The notes below the pieces were generated by a model. That model saw only the letters and a program-made list of their open reading frames with translations, was not told the DNA's origin and searched no databases. A stretch of 64,000 bases of DNA, taken from Acidocella sp. (GTDB lineage: Bacteria; Pseudomonadota; Alphaproteobacteria; Acetobacterales; Acetobacteraceae). The DNA lies in NCBI GenBank assembly GCA_026224875.1, contig JAMFRU010000008.1:1-64000 (forward strand), given 5' to 3'. Positions 54,321 to 64,000 of this stretch are shown here, piece after piece. Each line of letters opens with the position of its first letter. Positions within the stretch are counted from its first letter, which is position 1. The position numbers were made by a program, and so were the translations under genes.

Positions 54321-56984
54321 ATGACTCAATATGTCGTGTACTCAGGCACTACCAGCAGCGGACTTGTCCTAGGCAGTGGTGACGTCATTGTTAATTATGC
54401 AGGCGGCACGGTCATAAATGCCATCGTGAACAGCGGTGGATTTGATGACTTATATGGGGGGGTTGATTCCGGTGCCACGATAAACAACGGCGGTCATCTG
54501 GTTCTGCTTTTGGGTGGCACGGCCAGCAATGCTGTAGTCAACGGCGGCTTTGTTGTCATTTCCAGCGGCACGGCAATCGGCTTGACGATCAGCAATGGCG
54601 GCGTGGGCGGCGTCATGGTTGAAGCCGGTGGTCTGCTGAGCGGCGGGACGATTGATTATGGCACGAATGCGAACATATACGCCGGCGGCACGGCGCGCGG
54701 CGTTACGGCAAATAATGCGGGTCTGGAAGTCTATAGCGGTGGTGTTGCCTCCGGCAGCTTCATCGTATCGGGCGGGCATCTGGACATTTCCGCTGGTGGT
54801 ATAGCCAGAGGCACCACGGTGAGCACCGGCGGCACCGAAAACGTGTCTTCCGGTGGTACGGCCAGTAACAGCGTTGTGAGCAGCGGAGGCATCGAGAACG
54901 TGTCTTCCGGCGGCACGGCGAGCGGCACCGTGGTGAGCACCAGCGGTACCGAAAACGTGTCTTCCGGTGGCATGGCGGTCAATACCACAGTCAGCGGTGG
55001 CACGGTCGTCATTTCCGGCGGCACCTCAATCGGCTTGACAATCAGCAATGGCGGTGCCGGCGGCGTCGTGGTTAAGGCCGGTGGTGTGCTGAGCGGCGGG
55101 ACGATTCTTCAAGGCACGAATGCGAACATATCCTCCGGTGGCAAGGCGCTCGGCGTTACGGCGAATAATGCGGGTTTGGTGGTTTATACGGGCGGTATTG
55201 CCTCTGGCAGCATCATCATATCGAGCGCTCATCTCAATATTTCCTCCGGCGGCACGGCCAGCGGCACGGTGGTAAGCGGCGGCGGCGAGGTGTTTGTATC
55301 GTCCGGTGGCACGGCGACCGGCACTGTGGCGAATTTCGGCGGTTATCAAATCGTCGATTCGGGCGGCACGGCCGTTAGTGCCACGGTGAATATCGGCGGA
55401 CTGGACTACGTATCGGGCGGGACTGAAACAGGCGCCACCATAAACTCCCAGGGTGAGCAGAATATCGTTGCTGGTTCGGTCGATGGCACGACGGTGAGTT
55501 CCGGTGGCTACATGTATGCCTCTGGCGGCACAGTCAATAATACGACGGTGAATGCCGCTGGTTGGCTGATTATCTCTGGCGGCACAGTCAGTGGCGTAAC
55601 GGGGGCTGGAACCTATGACGCAGCGATAAGCGCCTATATTTTAGCCCAAATTCAAGCATATGGCGATGTTAGCGGCATCTCGCTCGACGCCACTAACCTC
55701 GCCATTTACGCCGGCGCTACGGCCTATACCGTGACCGCTACGGACCATAGCAATATAAATGTGGGCAGCGGCGGCATTATCAGCGGCGCCACTGTTTCCG
55801 GCATCTCTACTGAGAATGTCGTCTACGGCGGGATAGCCATAAGTTCGGTCATCGGTGCCACGGGAACGATGACCATTTCCGGCGGGGTAGCCAGTGGCAC
55901 GATTGTACAATCCGGGGGCACCGAAATCATTGCTGAAAATGCGATAAAAGGTGTGGCCAGCGGCACGATTGTGCAATCCGGAGGCATCGAGATTGTCTCC
56001 TCCGGCGGGACAGCAAGCCGGACCACGGTGAGCAGCGGTGGCCAGCAGATGGTTTCAAGCGGCGGTGCCACCACCAGTACGACCGTCTATGCCGGTGGGT
56101 CGGTAACAATATCAAATGGCGGTAGCACCAACGCGGATATCATCAGTAGTGGCGGCACGGAAAAATTGTTGTCCGGCGGCACGGCCAACGGCATCACGCT
56201 GCTCTCCGGCGGAAAACTCGATCTTCTGGGCGATGCATATGTGAGCGGCGCCACCGCGACGTTGAGCGCCGGCAGTGGTGGCACAAATGTTCTAACCATC
56301 ACCGAAGGCGGCCATAGCTATACACAGACCCTGTCTGGTGATTATACCGGCGAAACCTTCACTTTGTCGGTGGACAGCACAGGTGGCACGGTCGTCTACA
56401 TCTGCTTCCTCGCCGGCACCCATATCGCCACCCCGGCAGGCGAGGTCGTGGTTGAGACTCTCTCAGCCGGCGACTTGGTGCTCACCGCCGGTGGTGCCGC
56501 GCAACCGGTCATCTGGCTCGGCCGCAGCACCGTCTCCACCCGCTTCGCCGACCCGGAAGCCAGCTCGCCCATCCGAATCAAAACAGGCGCTTTGGGTGCG
56601 GGGTTGCCGGTACGCGACCTGCTGGTCTCTCCCAACCATGCGCTGTTTCTAGACGGTCTCCTTGTCCAGGCCAATGCGCTTGTGAATGGTATGAGCATTG
56701 TGCGGGAAACGAATTTGCCGGAGCGTTTCACCTACTTCCATGTGGAACTGGCAACGCATGAGTTACTGATCTCCGAAGGCGTGCCCTCGGAGAGTTTTGT
56801 GGACAATGTCGATCGTATGAATTTTGACAACTGGGAAGAGCATGAAGCTCTGTTCCGCAACAAAACCGGAATTGAGGAAATGCCGTATCCAAGAGCGAAA
56901 GCCGCCCGGCAGATCCCTTCTGCCTTGTCCAAGATGCTGATCGAAAGGGCGACCCAGATCAGCGCGATACCACGCTCTGCGTGA
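54321..56984 (+). CDS. AIDA-like repeat protein with C-terminal Hint (hedgehog/intein-like) domain
   Basis: 887 aa; many ~20-aa SSGGTASGTVVSSGGTENV repeats; C-term VYICFLAGTHIATPAGEVVVETLSAGDLVLTAGGAAQPVIWLG...VRDLLVSPNHALFLDGLLVQANALVNGMSI (Hint_2-like). No signal peptide or autotransporter barrel seen. Confidence 0.85.
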   Translation: MTQYVVYSGTTSSGLVLGSGDVIVNYAGGTVINAIVNSGGFDDLYGGVDSGATINNGGHLVLLLGGTASNAVVNGGFVVISSGTAIGLTISNGGVGGVMVEAGGLLSGGTIDYGTNANIYAGGTARGVTANNAGLEVYSGGVASGSFIVSGGHLDISAGGIARGTTVSTGGTENVSSGGTASNSVVSSGGIENVSSGGTASGTVVSTSGTENVSSGGMAVNTTVSGGTVVISGGTSIGLTISNGGAGGVVVKAGGVLSGGTILQGTNANISSGGKALGVTANNAGLVVYTGGIASGSIIISSAHLNISSGGTASGTVVSGGGEVFVSSGGTATGTVANFGGYQIVDSGGTAVSATVNIGGLDYVSGGTETGATINSQGEQNIVAGSVDGTTVSSGGYMYASGGTVNNTTVNAAGWLIISGGTVSGVTGAGTYDAAISAYILAQIQAYGDVSGISLDATNLAIYAGATAYTVTATDHSNINVGSGGIISGATVSGISTENVVYGGIAISSVIGATGTMTISGGVASGTIVQSGGTEIIAENAIKGVASGTIVQSGGIEIVSSGGTASRTTVSSGGQQMVSSGGATTSTTVYAGGSVTISNGGSTNADIISSGGTEKLLSGGTANGITLLSGGKLDLLGDAYVSGATATLSAGSGGTNVLTITEGGHSYTQTLSGDYTGETFTLSVDSTGGTVVYICFLAGTHIATPAGEVVVETLSAGDLVLTAGGAAQPVIWLGRSTVSTRFADPEASSPIRIKTGALGAGLPVRDLLVSPNHALFLDGLLVQANALVNGMSIVRETNLPERFTYFHVELATHELLISEGVPSESFVDNVDRMNFDNWEEHEALFRNKTGIEEMPYPRAKAARQIPSALSKMLIERATQISAIPRSA

Positions 56985-57201: not shown

Positions 57202-58953
57202 TTAGAACAGAGCATCCTCAAAATCATCGCTTGCGGCTGGTGCAGCGGCGCGTGCGGGAGCTGTCGCCGTAACAATACCCCAGTTCGCGGCAACCGTAGC
57301 CTGGATATCCCGTTCCTGGGCCATCGTGTAGATTGCGCCAAGCTTGCCAAAGAATGCAGCGAGCGGGGCTTGTATATCGTCGTCACAAGGCTGCGCCTGG
57401 GCGGCCAAACAGTGCAAATCTTCGCCGGTCCGCCGAAGGGCGTTTCCGATTTCACCGTGAAACGCCAGTTCATCGCGCGAATTCTTCAAAAGGTTCAGAA
57501 CGGTCTCGCCATTTTCAGTCAGTGCCGCGACGTCACGTTCGGTTGTGCCCGCGGCTGCATTTATACAGAGAATCGCGGCCGAAAGCGCGGCACCGGCAGT
57601 CTCGTCCTGGGCGCCCATTGCCTCGGGCACCGCCGAGGATAGATCCGATGTCGTTGCAATCAATGTTTTCAGCGCGGCGACGCAGGCGTTGGCCGTACCT
57701 TCCAGATAACCCGCATGTGTGCGCAGTTCCGTTGCTATAATGCTGAGCGGCCGGCCCGCATCGCCGAGCCGCGTCGATTTCAAAGTGGTATTCAATGCCA
57801 TATACAGTACATCGGATTTCATCATTTGGATCGCATCCAACCGGTCCGACAGGATACGCGCGGCGGCGGCGGCGCGGTGGCCGGTATCCTGGGCCAGCGT
57901 ATCGGCCTCTTCTATTTCGGTGGCCAGCCCAACGGCCTCGCCCATGCGCTGCTCCAGCGTTCGCAGAAAACCGCCGGACTCCGTTTCGGTTTGCCCATAG
58001 GCCACATCCCGCAGAGACAGTAGAGAAGCCGCGTCCCGTGACAAGCCCTCCAGCCCGTTGCTGATCTGCGCGACCTCGTGGTTGAAATCATGCAATGTGG
58101 CATCCAGCTGTGCGGCCAGAAGCGTGCTCATCACGGCTCGTATGCGTGCCGCGTCCCGTGCCGGAATGGCGGGATCGATCGTTTCTAGAAACAAAACGCC
58201 CGTTTGAATATGCTCGACGCGCTGGCGTGTGCTATCGCCAATCTGCAACGCCACCAGCATGCGCATAACCTGCTTGCGGACGTTGGTCGCCAGGGTGCTG
58301 GCATCCGCCGCCGCGGCACCTATTTTGCTGCGATGCCCGGCCAGCAGGTCTGCGGCATCGAGCAGCTGGCTGGAGACCATTGGAATCGTATCGGCACTGC
58401 CGCACTCTAGTGTTTCTGCTCGCAGCACGGCCGTCTGCAATTCGCCTTTCAGCATCAAAAGCCCGTGTTCGAGCGCCTCAACCTCGGCGCGGCCGGCTTC
58501 AACACGCTGGCACATCTCCTGGGCAAAAACCTCGAATTCCGTATCCGCGTTAGGAATTCCGCCGGCGGTTATTTTTATGCTCACGGTGAAGGCGCGCATA
58601 TAAATAAGGCTTCGGCGCATATCCTCGATGCGCGATGAGAGCGCGGCGCATTGATTTTCGAGCTGGCCGATCGTAGCGCGCCGCTCGCTTTGCTTGGCCG
58701 GCAGTGCGGCCAGTTGCGCCGACGCGCCATGGAGCTGTTGGGTTGTTGCGGCGATGGTGCTGGGGCCAAGTGCTTTCGTCATACCATCCAGCGTGGTTAC
58801 CAGTGTGGCGATACCATTGACCACTTGCGACAGAATTTTTCCCGCATCCAGAAACTTCGTCTCGATCACCAGCCGCGATGCTTCCATGCCTTGGATCATG
58901 CCGGCAACGCTCATTATAGTATCCGGTACCATCGTCTTCATTCCTATTCTCAC
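57202..58953 (-). CDS. Chemotaxis-associated soluble protein with degenerate MCP hairpin and CheZ-like motifs
   Basis: 583 aa; GTG start overlapping the cheB stop; [56 protein letters not shown]-terminus SDDFEDALF. Confidence 0.7.
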
Positions 58954-60038
58954 CGGGCCGCCGCACGGCGGATCTCTTGAGCGATGTGATGCAGCGGCAC
59001 AATTCTATCGACGCCACCTCGCGCGATAGCCTCTTTCGGCATGCCGAAAACAATTGAGGTCGCTTCGTCCTGGGCCAATGTGAACGCCCCGGCGGTCTTC
59101 ATTTCTGCCAGGCCACGGGCGCCATCATCGCCCATGCCGGTCATGATGACACCCACAGCGTTGGTGCCAACAACGCGCGCCGCCGAGCGAAACAACACGT
59201 CCACCGAGGGACGATGCCGTGTGACCAGCGGGCCATCCTTGACCGAAACATAATAACGCGCCCCACTGCGCTCGATCATGGTGTGCAAATTACCGGGTGC
59301 GATCAGCACCCGCCCGCGCAGCACGGTATCGCCATTTTCAGCTTCCTTCACCTCCATCGCGCACAGGCTGTCGAGCCGGCGCGCGAATGAGGCCGTGAAT
59401 TTCTCAGGCATATGCTGGACAATCACGATCCCTGGTGCATCGATTGGCAGCGCCTCCAGCACCTCGCGCAGCGATTCCGTGCCGCCCGTGGAAGCGCCGA
59501 TGCAGATGATCGTCTCCGTCGTGCGGGCCATGGCGCCGCCGGTGGCGGGTGGCAGCATGGCATCCGCCGTCAGCTTCTGGCTCGGATCATGCGCCGCCGC
59601 GACGCGATCCCGGCGGCGCCCGACGCGCGCTTGCGCCGCACCTTTCACAACCTCGCATATATGCGCGCGCGCTTCGGTCAAATGGTCGCTCACGCCTATT
59701 CTCGGCTTGAGAATGATATCGACAGCCCCAGCTTCCAGCGCCTGCATCAAGGTCTCGGAGCCGGTCTCCACGAGGGAAGAACACATCACCACGGGAATGG
59801 GATGCTGTGCCATTAATCTGCGCAGGAATGTTATCCCGTCCATGCGCGGCATTTCCACATCCAGCGTGATAACGTCGGGCACTTCATCGCGTATGCGCGC
59901 GGCGGCGACAAAAGGGTCGGAGGCAATGCCGAGCACTTCAATGTCGGGGTCGGCGGCCAGTATTTCGGCCAGCGTCTGGCGCACCGTGGCGGAATCATCG
60001 ACGATAAGTACCCGCACGCGTTTCCTGGTTTGCAGCAT
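58950..60038 (-). CDS. cheB: Chemotaxis protein-glutamate methylesterase CheB
   Basis: 362 aa; receiver [18 protein letters not shown]...[54 protein letters not shown]. Confidence 0.95.
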
Positions 60039-60042
60039 TAGC

Positions 60043-60903
60043 CTACACCCTCTGAAAAACGGTGCTCATAACCTGGACCACCGGCAGGCCCTCGCCCGCC
60101 CCGGTTTCTGAATGGCCAAGGATAAGATAACCGCCCGGCCGTAAATGATCGCACAGCCGGGTTAAGACATTGTTCTGCGTCTGCCGGTCGAAATAGATCA
60201 GTATATTGCGGCAGAAGATGCAATCGAGGTCGCGGTCCACGGGATAGCGCTTTTCCATCAGGTTCAAATGCCCCCAGGCGATCTTGGCGCGCAATTGCGG
60301 CACGATGCGGACCATATCCAGGCCCGGATCGCGCGACTGCAGAATAAAACTGCCGCGCATATCGGGCGGCACCGGGGCGATCATGGCCGTGGGGAACTGG
60401 CCGGCCACGGCGACTTTGAGTACGTGTGTTGAAATATCCGTTGCGAGTATCGAGTAATCCGGCCCGCGGTGCTGTTGGCGAAATGCTTCGAGCACCATGG
60501 CGATTGTATAGGCCTCGGCCCCGATGGAGGCGGCGGCACTCCATATTTTAACCGTCCGCCGTCTTGCCTGTACCATCGCAGGGAGAAAAACATCCCGTAA
60601 AAAATCGAAATGCGCGGGCTCACGGAAAAAATCCGTCTTGTTGGTTGATACCGCGTTGATCAGATGCACGAGTTCCTGGTCGAGACCATGATCTTTGAAG
60701 AGGTAATCGCAATACTCATCAAGCGCCTCAAGCCCCAACGCAGCCAGCCGCGAGCGCAGCCGAACCGCCAGCATGGTGCGTTTCGCAGGTGGCATCTTGA
60801 TGCCGCTATGCTGATGGATCAGCCCGGCCAGCCGCTCGAAATTGCGCTTGCTGAAGCGCTCGGTCACGGTATCGAGCGGTGCCATCAAAGAAGATTCACT
60901 CAC
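60043..60903 (-). CDS. cheR: Chemotaxis protein methyltransferase CheR
   Basis: 286 aa; [44 protein letters not shown]. Confidence 0.94.
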
Positions 60904-60936: not shown

Positions 60937-61413
60937 TCAGGCAGCGTGGTGCTGCATGTTGCCGGCCAGCATGGTCTCGCTGCCGGTCAGTAGTTTTGGC
61001 AGGTCGAACAGAACCACAAACCCGTCCTCCCGGCGGACGACGCCCGCGATATAATCCGAACGCCACGGCACGCCAATCTCCGGTGCGCCCTCGATATCCG
61101 CCGCCGCAAAACTGACAACCTCGATCACACGATCGGCCACCAGCCCAAGGCCGAGGAGCTGCCCGCCCACGGGCACGTCGAGCACCAGAATGCGGGTTGC
61201 ACCATCCGGTACCGTGGGTGGCAACCCCAGCCTGGCCCGCAGGTCGATCATGGGGGTGCCACGCCCCCGCACATCGATCAGACCAAGCAGATAATCGGGT
61301 CCCTCTGGTATCTTGAAGGGCGGTCGATAATCCAGAATCTCCCGTACATAGGCGACCGGCACCGCGAAAACTTCCTGTCCCAATGCCAATGTCACGAAAT
61401 CTCCGGCTTGCAT
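60937..61413 (-). CDS. cheW: Chemotaxis coupling protein CheW
   Basis: MQAGDFVTLALGQEVFAVPVAYVREILDY...LLGLIDVRGRGTPMIDLRARLGLP; ATG at 61413. Confidence 0.93.
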   Translation of the reverse strand: MQAGDFVTLALGQEVFAVPVAYVREILDYRPPFKIPEGPDYLLGLIDVRGRGTPMIDLRARLGLPPTVPDGATRILVLDVPVGGQLLGLGLVADRVIEVVSFAAADIEGAPEIGVPWRSDYIAGVVRREDGFVVLFDLPKLLTGSETMLAGNMQHHAA

Positions 61414-61427
61414 GATGCTGCCCTCTC

Positions 61428-63134
61428 TCAAACATAGGCTTTGAATTTAGCGTCGCCCTCATCCGGGCCACCCACAGTGAGGTCCAGGGCAAAGCCGTTG
61501 CTCGCCGGCGGTTGAACCGGAATGAATTTGCCCTGCGGCGGCGTGGCTTTTTGTGCGGGCTTGGTCCGCGCCGGCGCTCTGAGCACTGCCTCTCTGGGAG
61601 CCGGTACACGTGCCGGCTTCACCGTCTCCCTGCCGTGGGCTGATGCATCGGTACGGAAAAAGGAAATCGCAACCTGCAGTTCTTCCGCCTGTGTCGATAA
61701 TTCTTCAGATGTTGCCGTCATCTGTTCCGAGGCCGCGGCATTCTGCTGCGTAACCTTATCCAGCTGCTGAATGGCCTCGTTAATCTGCGATGCGCCGATA
61801 TCCTGCTCGCGGCAGGCAGCGCTGATCTCCGACACAAGCTCCGCCGTTTTGCGGATGTTAGGAACCAGACTGGTCAGCATATCGCCCGCCGTCCGCGCCG
61901 CTTTCACGGTCTCTGTTGAAACCGCGCTGATTTCGGTTGCGGCAATCTGGCTGCGTTCGGCCAATTTACGAACTTCTGATGCCACTACAGCGAAACCTCT
62001 GCCATGCTCGCCAGCACGCGCCGCCTCTACAGCGGCATTCAAGGCCAGCAAATCGGTCTGGCGCGCGATCTCCTGCACGATGGTGATTTTCTCGGCAATC
62101 GTTTGCATTGCTGCCACGGCGCGGTTCACCGCTTCGCCACTGGCTTCCGTATCCTTGGCCGACTGGCGCGAGATTTTCTCGGTCTGGGTAGCATTGTCAG
62201 CGTTCTGTTTAATGTTGGCGGTCATCTCCTCCATCGAGGCCGAGGCCTGCTCCGCCGCCGAAGCCTGCTCGGTAGCACCCTGGCTCACCTGCTCGGCCGT
62301 AGCGGAAAGTTCCTGGCTGCCGGAGGATACATTGTTAGATGCAACCAGCGCACTACCCACAATATTGCGCAATTTCGCGCTCATACTATTGACCGTATCG
62401 ACCAGATCCTTGATCTCGTCGCGCGTATTGATTTCGACGGTTTTTGTAAGGTCGCCATTGGCGACAGCCGCAATCAGCGTGCCGATTTTGCTTAAACCCT
62501 TACTGATCGACAAGGCCAGCCAGATCGCGGCACTGAGGGCGATGATAAGTGAGCCCACGGCAACGCCGATCAGCACGTTGCGGGTGGAACCGTAAGTATT
62601 GCCGGCCTGCTGCTCCTGGGCCTGCATCTCCTGCGTCGCCAGCTTTACGAGATCATCCGTAATCGCGCTGCTCTGGTCTGTAACCGTTTTCAGCTGGCCG
62701 ACGGAAAGCGCATCCGCCTGTACGTCCTTGTTGGCCAGCGCATAAGTCCGCAGCTGGCTATCCAGAGGCTTCATGGTTTCCCACAGCGACCGCAGAGCGA
62801 TATATTTGTCCCGCTCAGCCTGTGAGGAGCTTTGATCTCCTTGGTCGAGAAGGGCTTCGAAATCCTGGCGCTCCTGGGTGAGTTCGTTGTCATAAGCTTG
62901 CATCTGCGCAGGGTCGTCCTCAAGGATGAGATCCTTTTCGGCACGATTGATCTCGAGCAATTTACTGCTCACCGCATCCGCCAGCTGGACCTTGGAGACG
63001 GGGCCGCTGATCAATGCCGTCATGGTGGTGTTCATGGTGGCAAGGCCCATCACTGCATAGCTGGCGGCACAGATCAGCAGGAGGATGATGAGGCCAAAGG
63101 ACAGGCCAAGCTTGAGCTTAATGGTAAAGCGCAT
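61428..63134 (-). CDS. Methyl-accepting chemotaxis protein
   Basis: 568 aa; two TMs, [45 protein letters not shown]; conserved C-terminal tail [14 protein letters not shown]. Confidence 0.95.
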
Positions 63135-63234: not shown

Positions 63235-64000
63235 TCAGCTATAGGCTTTGAATTGCGCATCGCCCTCGTCCGGCCCCCCCACAGCCAGGTCGAGGGCAAA
63301 GCCATTGCTCCCGGATGTCTGAACCGGAATGAATTTGCCCTGCGGCGGCGTGGCTTTCGGCATTGTTTTCGGCACATGCCTCGCCCGCACTGGTGCCCTC
63401 AGCACCGGCGCCCGTGAAGGCTTCATCGCCTCGGGCTTGCCTTTGCTTGTCTCATCAGTACGGAAATAGGAAATCGCGGCCTGTAGTTCTTCCGCCTGTG
63501 TCGATAATTCTTCAGATGTTGCCGTCATCTGTTCCGAGGCCGCGGCATTCTGCTGCGTAACCTTATCCAGCTGCTGAATGGCCTCGTTAATCTGCGACGC
63601 ACCAATATCCTGCTCGCGGCAGGCGGCGCTGATCTCCGACACGAGCTCCGCCGTTTTGCGGATGTTGGGAACCAGGCTGGTCAGCATATCGCCCGCCGTC
63701 CGCGCCGCCTTCACTGCCTCCCCGGAGACCGTGCCGATTTCGGTCGCCGCAATCTGGCTGCGCTCGGCTAATTTGCGAACTTCCGAGGCCACCACGGCAA
63801 AACCTCTGCCATGCTCGCCGGCACGCGCCGCCTCCACGGCGGCGTTCAAGGCCAGCAGGTCGGTCTGGCGCGCGATCTCCTGCACGATGGTGATTTTCTC
63901 CGCAATCGTCTGCATCGCCGTTACCGCGCGGTTCACCGCCTCGCCGCTGGCTTCCGCATCCTTGGCCGACTGGCGCGAGATTTTCTCGGTCTGGGTGGCA
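63235..64000 (-). CDS. Methyl-accepting chemotaxis protein, C-terminal part (truncated by window edge)
   Basis: Same signalling domain as the adjacent MCP; tail [14 protein letters not shown]; frame remains open to 64000. Confidence 0.93.

Follow-up and report, generated by a model that had tools for sequence, protein, structure and literature searches.

CheZ is the enzyme that ends the chemotaxis signal. To our knowledge, several chemosensory systems possess CheY and have no known means of switching it off. In CheZ, catalytic roles belong to Q147 and an acidic residue (PMC3035606); DxxxQ is the phosphatase signature of both CheZ and the HisKA_3 kinases (PMC3510030), and the motif AXXFQ adjoins DxxxQ in CheZ (PMC7750401). 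Early-stage (stage 1/2) F7 clusters encode cheY but no cheZ, the latter being carried only by the companion F6 system (PMC7184735). McpA-like/24H receptors (PA0180, VCA1088 and VC1394) are transmembrane proteins, uncategorised or of the 24H class, that are dispensable for F7 arrays; the McpA-like ones have a C-terminus that is strikingly conserved and whose role is unknown (PMC7184735, PMC7534058). As described in PMC12654446, citing Agbekudzi 2024, CheT of S. meliloti is a small DxxxQ protein that dephosphorylates one CheY.

Genomic context of X

The window, i.e. the whole stretch of DNA analysed, comprises 64,000 nucleotides of an Acidocella sp. contig (JAMFRU010000008.1). It contains a gene, named X here, which is the last in a cluster of the order STAS-cheY-cheA-cheW-MCP-MCP-cheW-cheR-cheB-X, with the distal cheW, cheA, cheY and STAS genes located beyond the window, past the second MCP gene (Table 1). 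The open reading frame is as originally predicted, including the GTG start codon that shares the letters GTGA with the TGA stop codon of cheB. No cheZ, cheC or cheX was seen in this cluster.

The two adjoining MCP genes encode almost identical signalling domains and similar C-termini, and they probably arose, judging from this likeness, by a recent tandem duplication. On the other side of X lies a gene on the plus strand (54321-56984), whose end and that of X are about 220 bases apart. Its product of 887 aa carries stalk repeats of AIDA-type adhesins and, at the C-terminus, a Hint_2 domain.

Table 1. Features of X and of the neighbouring chemotaxis genes (positions in the window; residues of X)
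Feature	Position	Strand	Description
X	57202..58953	minus	583 aa, GTG start; candidate CheZ-like phosphatase with two MCP-like halves
N-terminal half, residues 1-312	58018..58953	minus	degenerate tip and DxxxQ helix; hhalign to G
First MCP-like tip, residues 117-147	58513..58605	minus	degenerate; alignments; helix turn 131-137 in low-confidence AF2 models
Catalytic-like helix, residues 233-250	58204..58257	minus	seven residues invariant (29/29)
C-terminal half, residues 313-583	57205..58017	minus	better-kept tip, degenerate DxxxQ site, YTMxxER and tail; hhalign to G; 2ch7
Second MCP-like tip, residues 378-418	57700..57822	minus	alignments; 3ur1 and 2ch7 matches
DxxxQ-equivalent place of the second half, residues 496-506	57436..57468	minus	lost; 11 residues aligned with LQFQDRxSQIL of G
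YTMxxER motif, residues 542-551	57301..57330	minus	invariant in alignments
C-terminal tail SDDFEDALF, residues 575-583	57205..57231	minus	candidate CheY docking peptide; F583 invariant
cheB	58950..60038	minus	Pfam CheB_methylest and Response_reg; stop codon overlaps X start
cheR	60043..60903	minus
cheW	60937..61431	minus
MCP	61428..63134	minus	4HB-HAMP-MCPsignal
Second MCP	63235..64000	minus	continues to contig position 65058

Conserved residues of X

Conservation was assessed in 29 full-length homologues of X, which form 18 clusters at 60% identity and have a median pairwise identity of 24%. Only 19 columns are invariant in all 29 sequences: F34, G38, L41, F143, Q237, G239, D240, Q244, R245, E247, H248, N388, G400, Y542, T543, M544, E547, R548 and F583. 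Seven of these (Q237 to H248) fall within the catalytic-like helix. Since D240, Q244 and F583 are among so few invariant columns at such low identity, the conservation of the DxxxQ motif and of the tail is not a matter of chance.

The original prediction placed an Asp240/Gln244 pair in a 15-residue segment resembling the CheZ active-site helix, together with a CheZ-like docking tail, and it stood or fell mainly with the conservation of these elements among orthologues. The segment corresponds to residues 236-250, D240 and Q244 span positions 58222-58236 as proposed (codons 58234-58236 and 58222-58224, respectively), and both residues, like F583, are invariant in 29/29 sequences. The tail SDDFEDALF likewise ends the protein as described, and an acidic, F-ended tail is kept throughout the homologues, mostly as DxLF. 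The invariant YTMxxER motif, absent from that prediction, adds to the conserved features of X.

One homologue (L112:2818-3942) contains a frameshift, with the second half (YTMxxER and a DDALAAILF tail) running on in another frame. It was considered as a single-half version of X; this was rejected, because the gene proved to have two halves and a frameshift. From its sequence, this copy would be a pseudogene or an assembly error.

MCP ancestry and probable tandem duplication

Single-sequence searches with X gave weak matches to MCPs (PF00015, E 0.16; PDB 3ur1, E 0.31), whereas the profile of its orthologues matches MCP cytoplasmic signalling domains (2ch7, E 1.4e-15, residues 337-542). X alone lies below the PF00015 cut-off, and the orthologue L076 lies above it with 35.4 bits. 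By these comparisons, X is homologous to the MCP signalling hairpin (PF00015). Besides the weak PF00015 match, scanning X with Pfam and NCBIfam gave coiled-coil noise only, and no obvious hydrophobic segment was found in its sequence.

The MCP-like tip that had been proposed at residues 377-415 is thus real, as the 2ch7 match shows, but a second one, at about residues 117-147, had been missed. Receptor ancestry is supported as well, with two receptor-like hairpins in tandem instead of the single one assumed. An intact kinase-control tip was found in neither place: an 11-residue stretch of the second tip stands where MCPs have NAAIEAARAGE, and the first tip is more degenerate, its motif having been lost. 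At the position that we take to correspond to Tsr Glu385, most second-tip sequences have K, R or L. Because both tips are degenerate, it is unlikely that X makes canonical trimer and baseplate contacts.

AF2 models of full-length X and of residues 60-320 (three sequences) were of low confidence (pLDDT 60 and 65), and only their helix turns were used, i.e. 131-137 in both models and 395-397 in the full-length, low-confidence model. These low-confidence models do not display the CheZ topology, and some 105 residues separate the DxxxQ motif from the first tip. A Foldseek search of the PDB with the X model gave no match at E <= 0.001; the top entries were long helical bundles and MCPs, which were not taken as evidence.

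A match in our phylum sample (L113) led to a gammaproteobacterial family, named G here, of about 400 aa and a single-copy unit. G proteins have an apparent N-terminal TM hairpin (read by eye), a canonical MCP tip, the sequence LQFQDRVSQILxHV, a Y(T/A)M-like motif and the tail DITFF. Outside the MCP tip, their invariant or nearly invariant residues cluster in LQFQDxxxQ and at the end of the tail. In hhalign comparisons the N-terminal half of X matched G with 97.4% probability (E 1.1e-11), tip on tip and DxxxQ on DxxxQ, and the C-terminal half matched the same part of G with 99.2% (E 6.8e-20). An ordinary-MCP profile, a control built from 8 MCPs only, reached 3% with the N-terminal half. It is these separate matches of both halves to G, and not the direct comparison of the halves, which is weak (26%), that point to tandem duplication. 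X is best explained, on these alignments, as a duplicated G-type unit in which the first half retains DxxxQ and the second the better tip and the tail.

In most loci with readable gene order, G is encoded directly before cheY-STAS-cheA, e.g. on plasmids of Aeromonas and Pseudomonas as well as in several genomes. Based on topology and gene order, not on sequence, G probably represents the McpA-like/24H receptors of the F7 and F9 systems (PA0180/CttP, VCA1088 and VC1394).

Relation to CheZ

Neither X nor its orthologues matched the Pfam CheZ model (PF04344), therefore X falls outside Pfam CheZ; CheC/CheX (PF04509/PF13690) were also absent from the Pfam scan of X. The same CheZ model matches 5/13 members of G at E values up to 1 (best 4e-5), with a score below the curated cut-off in the one case given in full. 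With hhalign, X alone aligned to CheZ with 20-48% probability and DxxxQ in register, and the joint X+G profile with 88% (E 3.1e-6). In hmmsearch, the joint profile scored up to 28.5 bits on CheZ proteins, compared with at most 10.1 bits on reversed CheZ; an ordinary-MCP profile scored 7.1 on CheZ and 11.4 on reversed CheZ. When the motif was masked, CheZ still scored 16.5 bits, which leaves the motif itself to account for about 12 of the 28.5 bits, and all such weak profile scores are easily inflated for X and G, which are helical coiled coils. These scores support either true kinship or strong convergence over a hairpin of about 105 columns, and not family membership.

The D and Q of the CheZ-type catalytic DxxxQ are invariant in all 42 X+G sequences. 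The AXXFQ motif was not found before DxxxQ in X, which has xLQ(I/V/A)G there (ALQIG); G, with xLQFQ, matches it in part. Alphaproteobacterial CheZ sequences, which mostly read FQDITGQRI and have tails such as IDALF or DALLASF, are nearer to X than the E. coli CheZ with which it had originally been compared.

Distribution of X and of other phosphatases

X is rare and patchy. Among 36 genomes sampled from the same genus we found 3 full-length copies and one contig-end fragment, and a class sample of 289 alphaproteobacterial genomes yielded 2 other full-length copies; in the phylum sample, 17 of 398 genomes matched at E <= 1e-20, one of them with a G-type protein (G438, L113). A class-wide count of 149/289 matches was rejected as the distribution of X, as these were mostly ordinary MCPs. 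The A. aminolytica orthologue is 67% identical, and X is also present on large replicons of Shinella, Rhizobium, Agrobacterium, Novosphingobium, Sphingomonas and Methylosinus. No relatives of X were found in viral contigs and phages.

In nearly all of the 30 loci X lies, in either orientation, within or beside the same che cluster (STAS/CheY/CheA/CheR/CheB), and STAS accompanies the cluster, with few exceptions, wherever its far end lay in the fetched stretch. The position of X varies: it follows cheB in many alphaproteobacteria and is divergent from STAS-cheY in Shinella and some Rhizobium-like genomes. Around three copies (L078, L099 and L101), the examined stretch holds no full che cluster; these copies are possibly orphans or recent rearrangements. 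NCBI annotations of X proteins range from hypothetical to ‘chemotaxis protein’ and ‘type VII secretion target’, the last being misleading. It is found on Shinella orthologues (L079 and L081) and is probably a misannotation caused by a weak match of EspC type, as seen in one orthologue.

Classical CheZ had been considered generally absent from this lineage. This was rejected for the class, in which 112/289 genomes have CheZ above the Pfam cut-off, but it holds more locally: no CheZ was found in this genome or in the same-genus genomes sampled. The genome does encode three cheA genes, a fliM and CheC/CheX-family proteins near another cheA. The latter are matches in two ORFs close to the third cheA (G000, contig C34, L146), and on the strength of these matches the che system located there does have a known phosphatase type.

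Proposed function of X

Based on our observations, we lean towards the view that X is a soluble CheZ-type (DxxxQ) response-regulator phosphatase built on a duplicated chemoreceptor hairpin, a reading which we consider somewhat probable. The CheY-P phosphatase originally envisaged is thereby partly supported, i.e. by the controlled X+G profile link, by the conservation of the D/Q pair and the tail, and by the constant tie to one CheY-containing cluster. All 23 cluster CheYs examined have D57, N59, T87, E89 and K109 as in E. coli CheY. In such a mechanism, the C-terminal D-x-L-F tail would dock on the phosphorylated CheY that the same cluster encodes, Gln244 would orient the attacking water at the phospho-Asp, as in known CheZ chemistry (PMC3035606, PMC3510030), and Asp240 would pair with the conserved CheY lysine (K109 in E. 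coli numbering). The resulting decay of CheY-P would end signalling by this cluster, where no cheZ, cheC or cheX was seen, and the receptor-derived hairpins would probably hold the enzyme close to the receptor/kinase array or in register with it.

The two hairpins also suit another role, in which X is a non-catalytic array protein whose tips bridge or cap CheA/CheW baseplates, while the DxxxQ helix and the tail merely bind CheY, either as a sink adaptor or to raise its concentration at the array. A two-tip scaffold does exist in Vibrio, namely DosM (PMC7534058), and the tip of G is canonical. In X, however, both tips have degenerated, and the invariant D and Q are spaced exactly as in known phosphatases (i, i+4), which makes this role unlikely in our opinion. 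Gene order raises a different question, that of the substrate: the GTGA overlap and the frequent location behind cheB would fit a DxxxQ phosphatase of CheB-P, or of another receiver, that tunes adaptation and not CheY output. We regard this as quite improbable, given that X is next to STAS-cheY and away from cheB in Shinella and some Rhizobium-like genomes, and that G directly precedes cheY.

Against the phosphatase reading count the lack of a Pfam CheZ match of X itself, the replaced AXXFQ motif, the low-confidence models without CheZ topology and the ease with which coiled-coil scores are inflated; besides, a polar helix may be invariant for structural reasons. The helix might thus serve the fold or bind a partner unrelated to receivers, e.g. 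the STAS protein, which accompanies the cluster so regularly, or CheR/CheB, its likeness to CheZ being convergent helix composition; the profile link to CheZ is, after all, moderate. On the other hand, the reversed-CheZ and ordinary-MCP controls do not exceed 11.4 bits, and the tail and DxxxQ occur together in X, G and CheZ, so that we find this explanation quite improbable as well.

If X is a CheZ-type phosphatase, a receptor-fold protein would fill the missing off-step of CheY. Its relatives suggest, as far as their sequences can tell, that a little-understood group of chemoreceptors shares the CheZ active-site signature. More tentatively, and with somewhat less than even confidence, we propose that the receptor-derived lineage that includes the McpA-like/24H receptors of cheZ-less F7/F9 clusters consists of CheZ-type CheY-P phosphatases, in which the conserved C-terminus of McpA-like receptors would be the site plus docking tail, and that CheZ may share the hairpin ancestry. 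If true, this C-terminus would gain a function and a common origin of the receptor hairpin and the CheZ phosphatase would be suggested.

Comparison with known systems

The proposed activity of X has a parallel in CheC/CheX/FliY, which also act on CheY-P through an amide and an acidic residue. These proteins have another fold and an ExxN motif, and members of their family are encoded elsewhere in this genome. CheT, by its description in PMC12654446, resembles X as an alphaproteobacterial chemotaxis protein with DXXXQ that is predicted to be CheZ-like; it belongs to another cluster type, and that description reports no MCP halves. DosM, the double-signalling-domain receptor of the V. cholerae F9 system, shares with X the two MCP tips per chain, but it serves as a scaffold of arrays and has a signalling domain at each end, whereas X combines degenerate tips with a DxxxQ site.

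G is similar to X in having an MCP tip, a DxxxQ helix, a Y(T/A)M-like region and an acidic, F-ended tail, as well as in being encoded with CheY-STAS-CheA. It differs as a single-copy protein with an N-terminal TM hairpin, a canonical tip and the tail DITFF. The CheZ proteins compared here are mostly of about 190-290 aa, without MCP tips and with AXXFQ before DxxxQ, in contrast to the duplicated, receptor-derived X of 583 aa, which is under the Pfam CheZ threshold. Nevertheless, alphaproteobacterial CheZ (PF04344) and X have in common DxxxQ in a long helix (FQDITGQRI in CheZ, IGDSTRQRV in X), about 105 aligned hairpin columns, and an acidic tail with a hydrophobic or Phe end, which reads IDALF in CheZ and EDALF in X.
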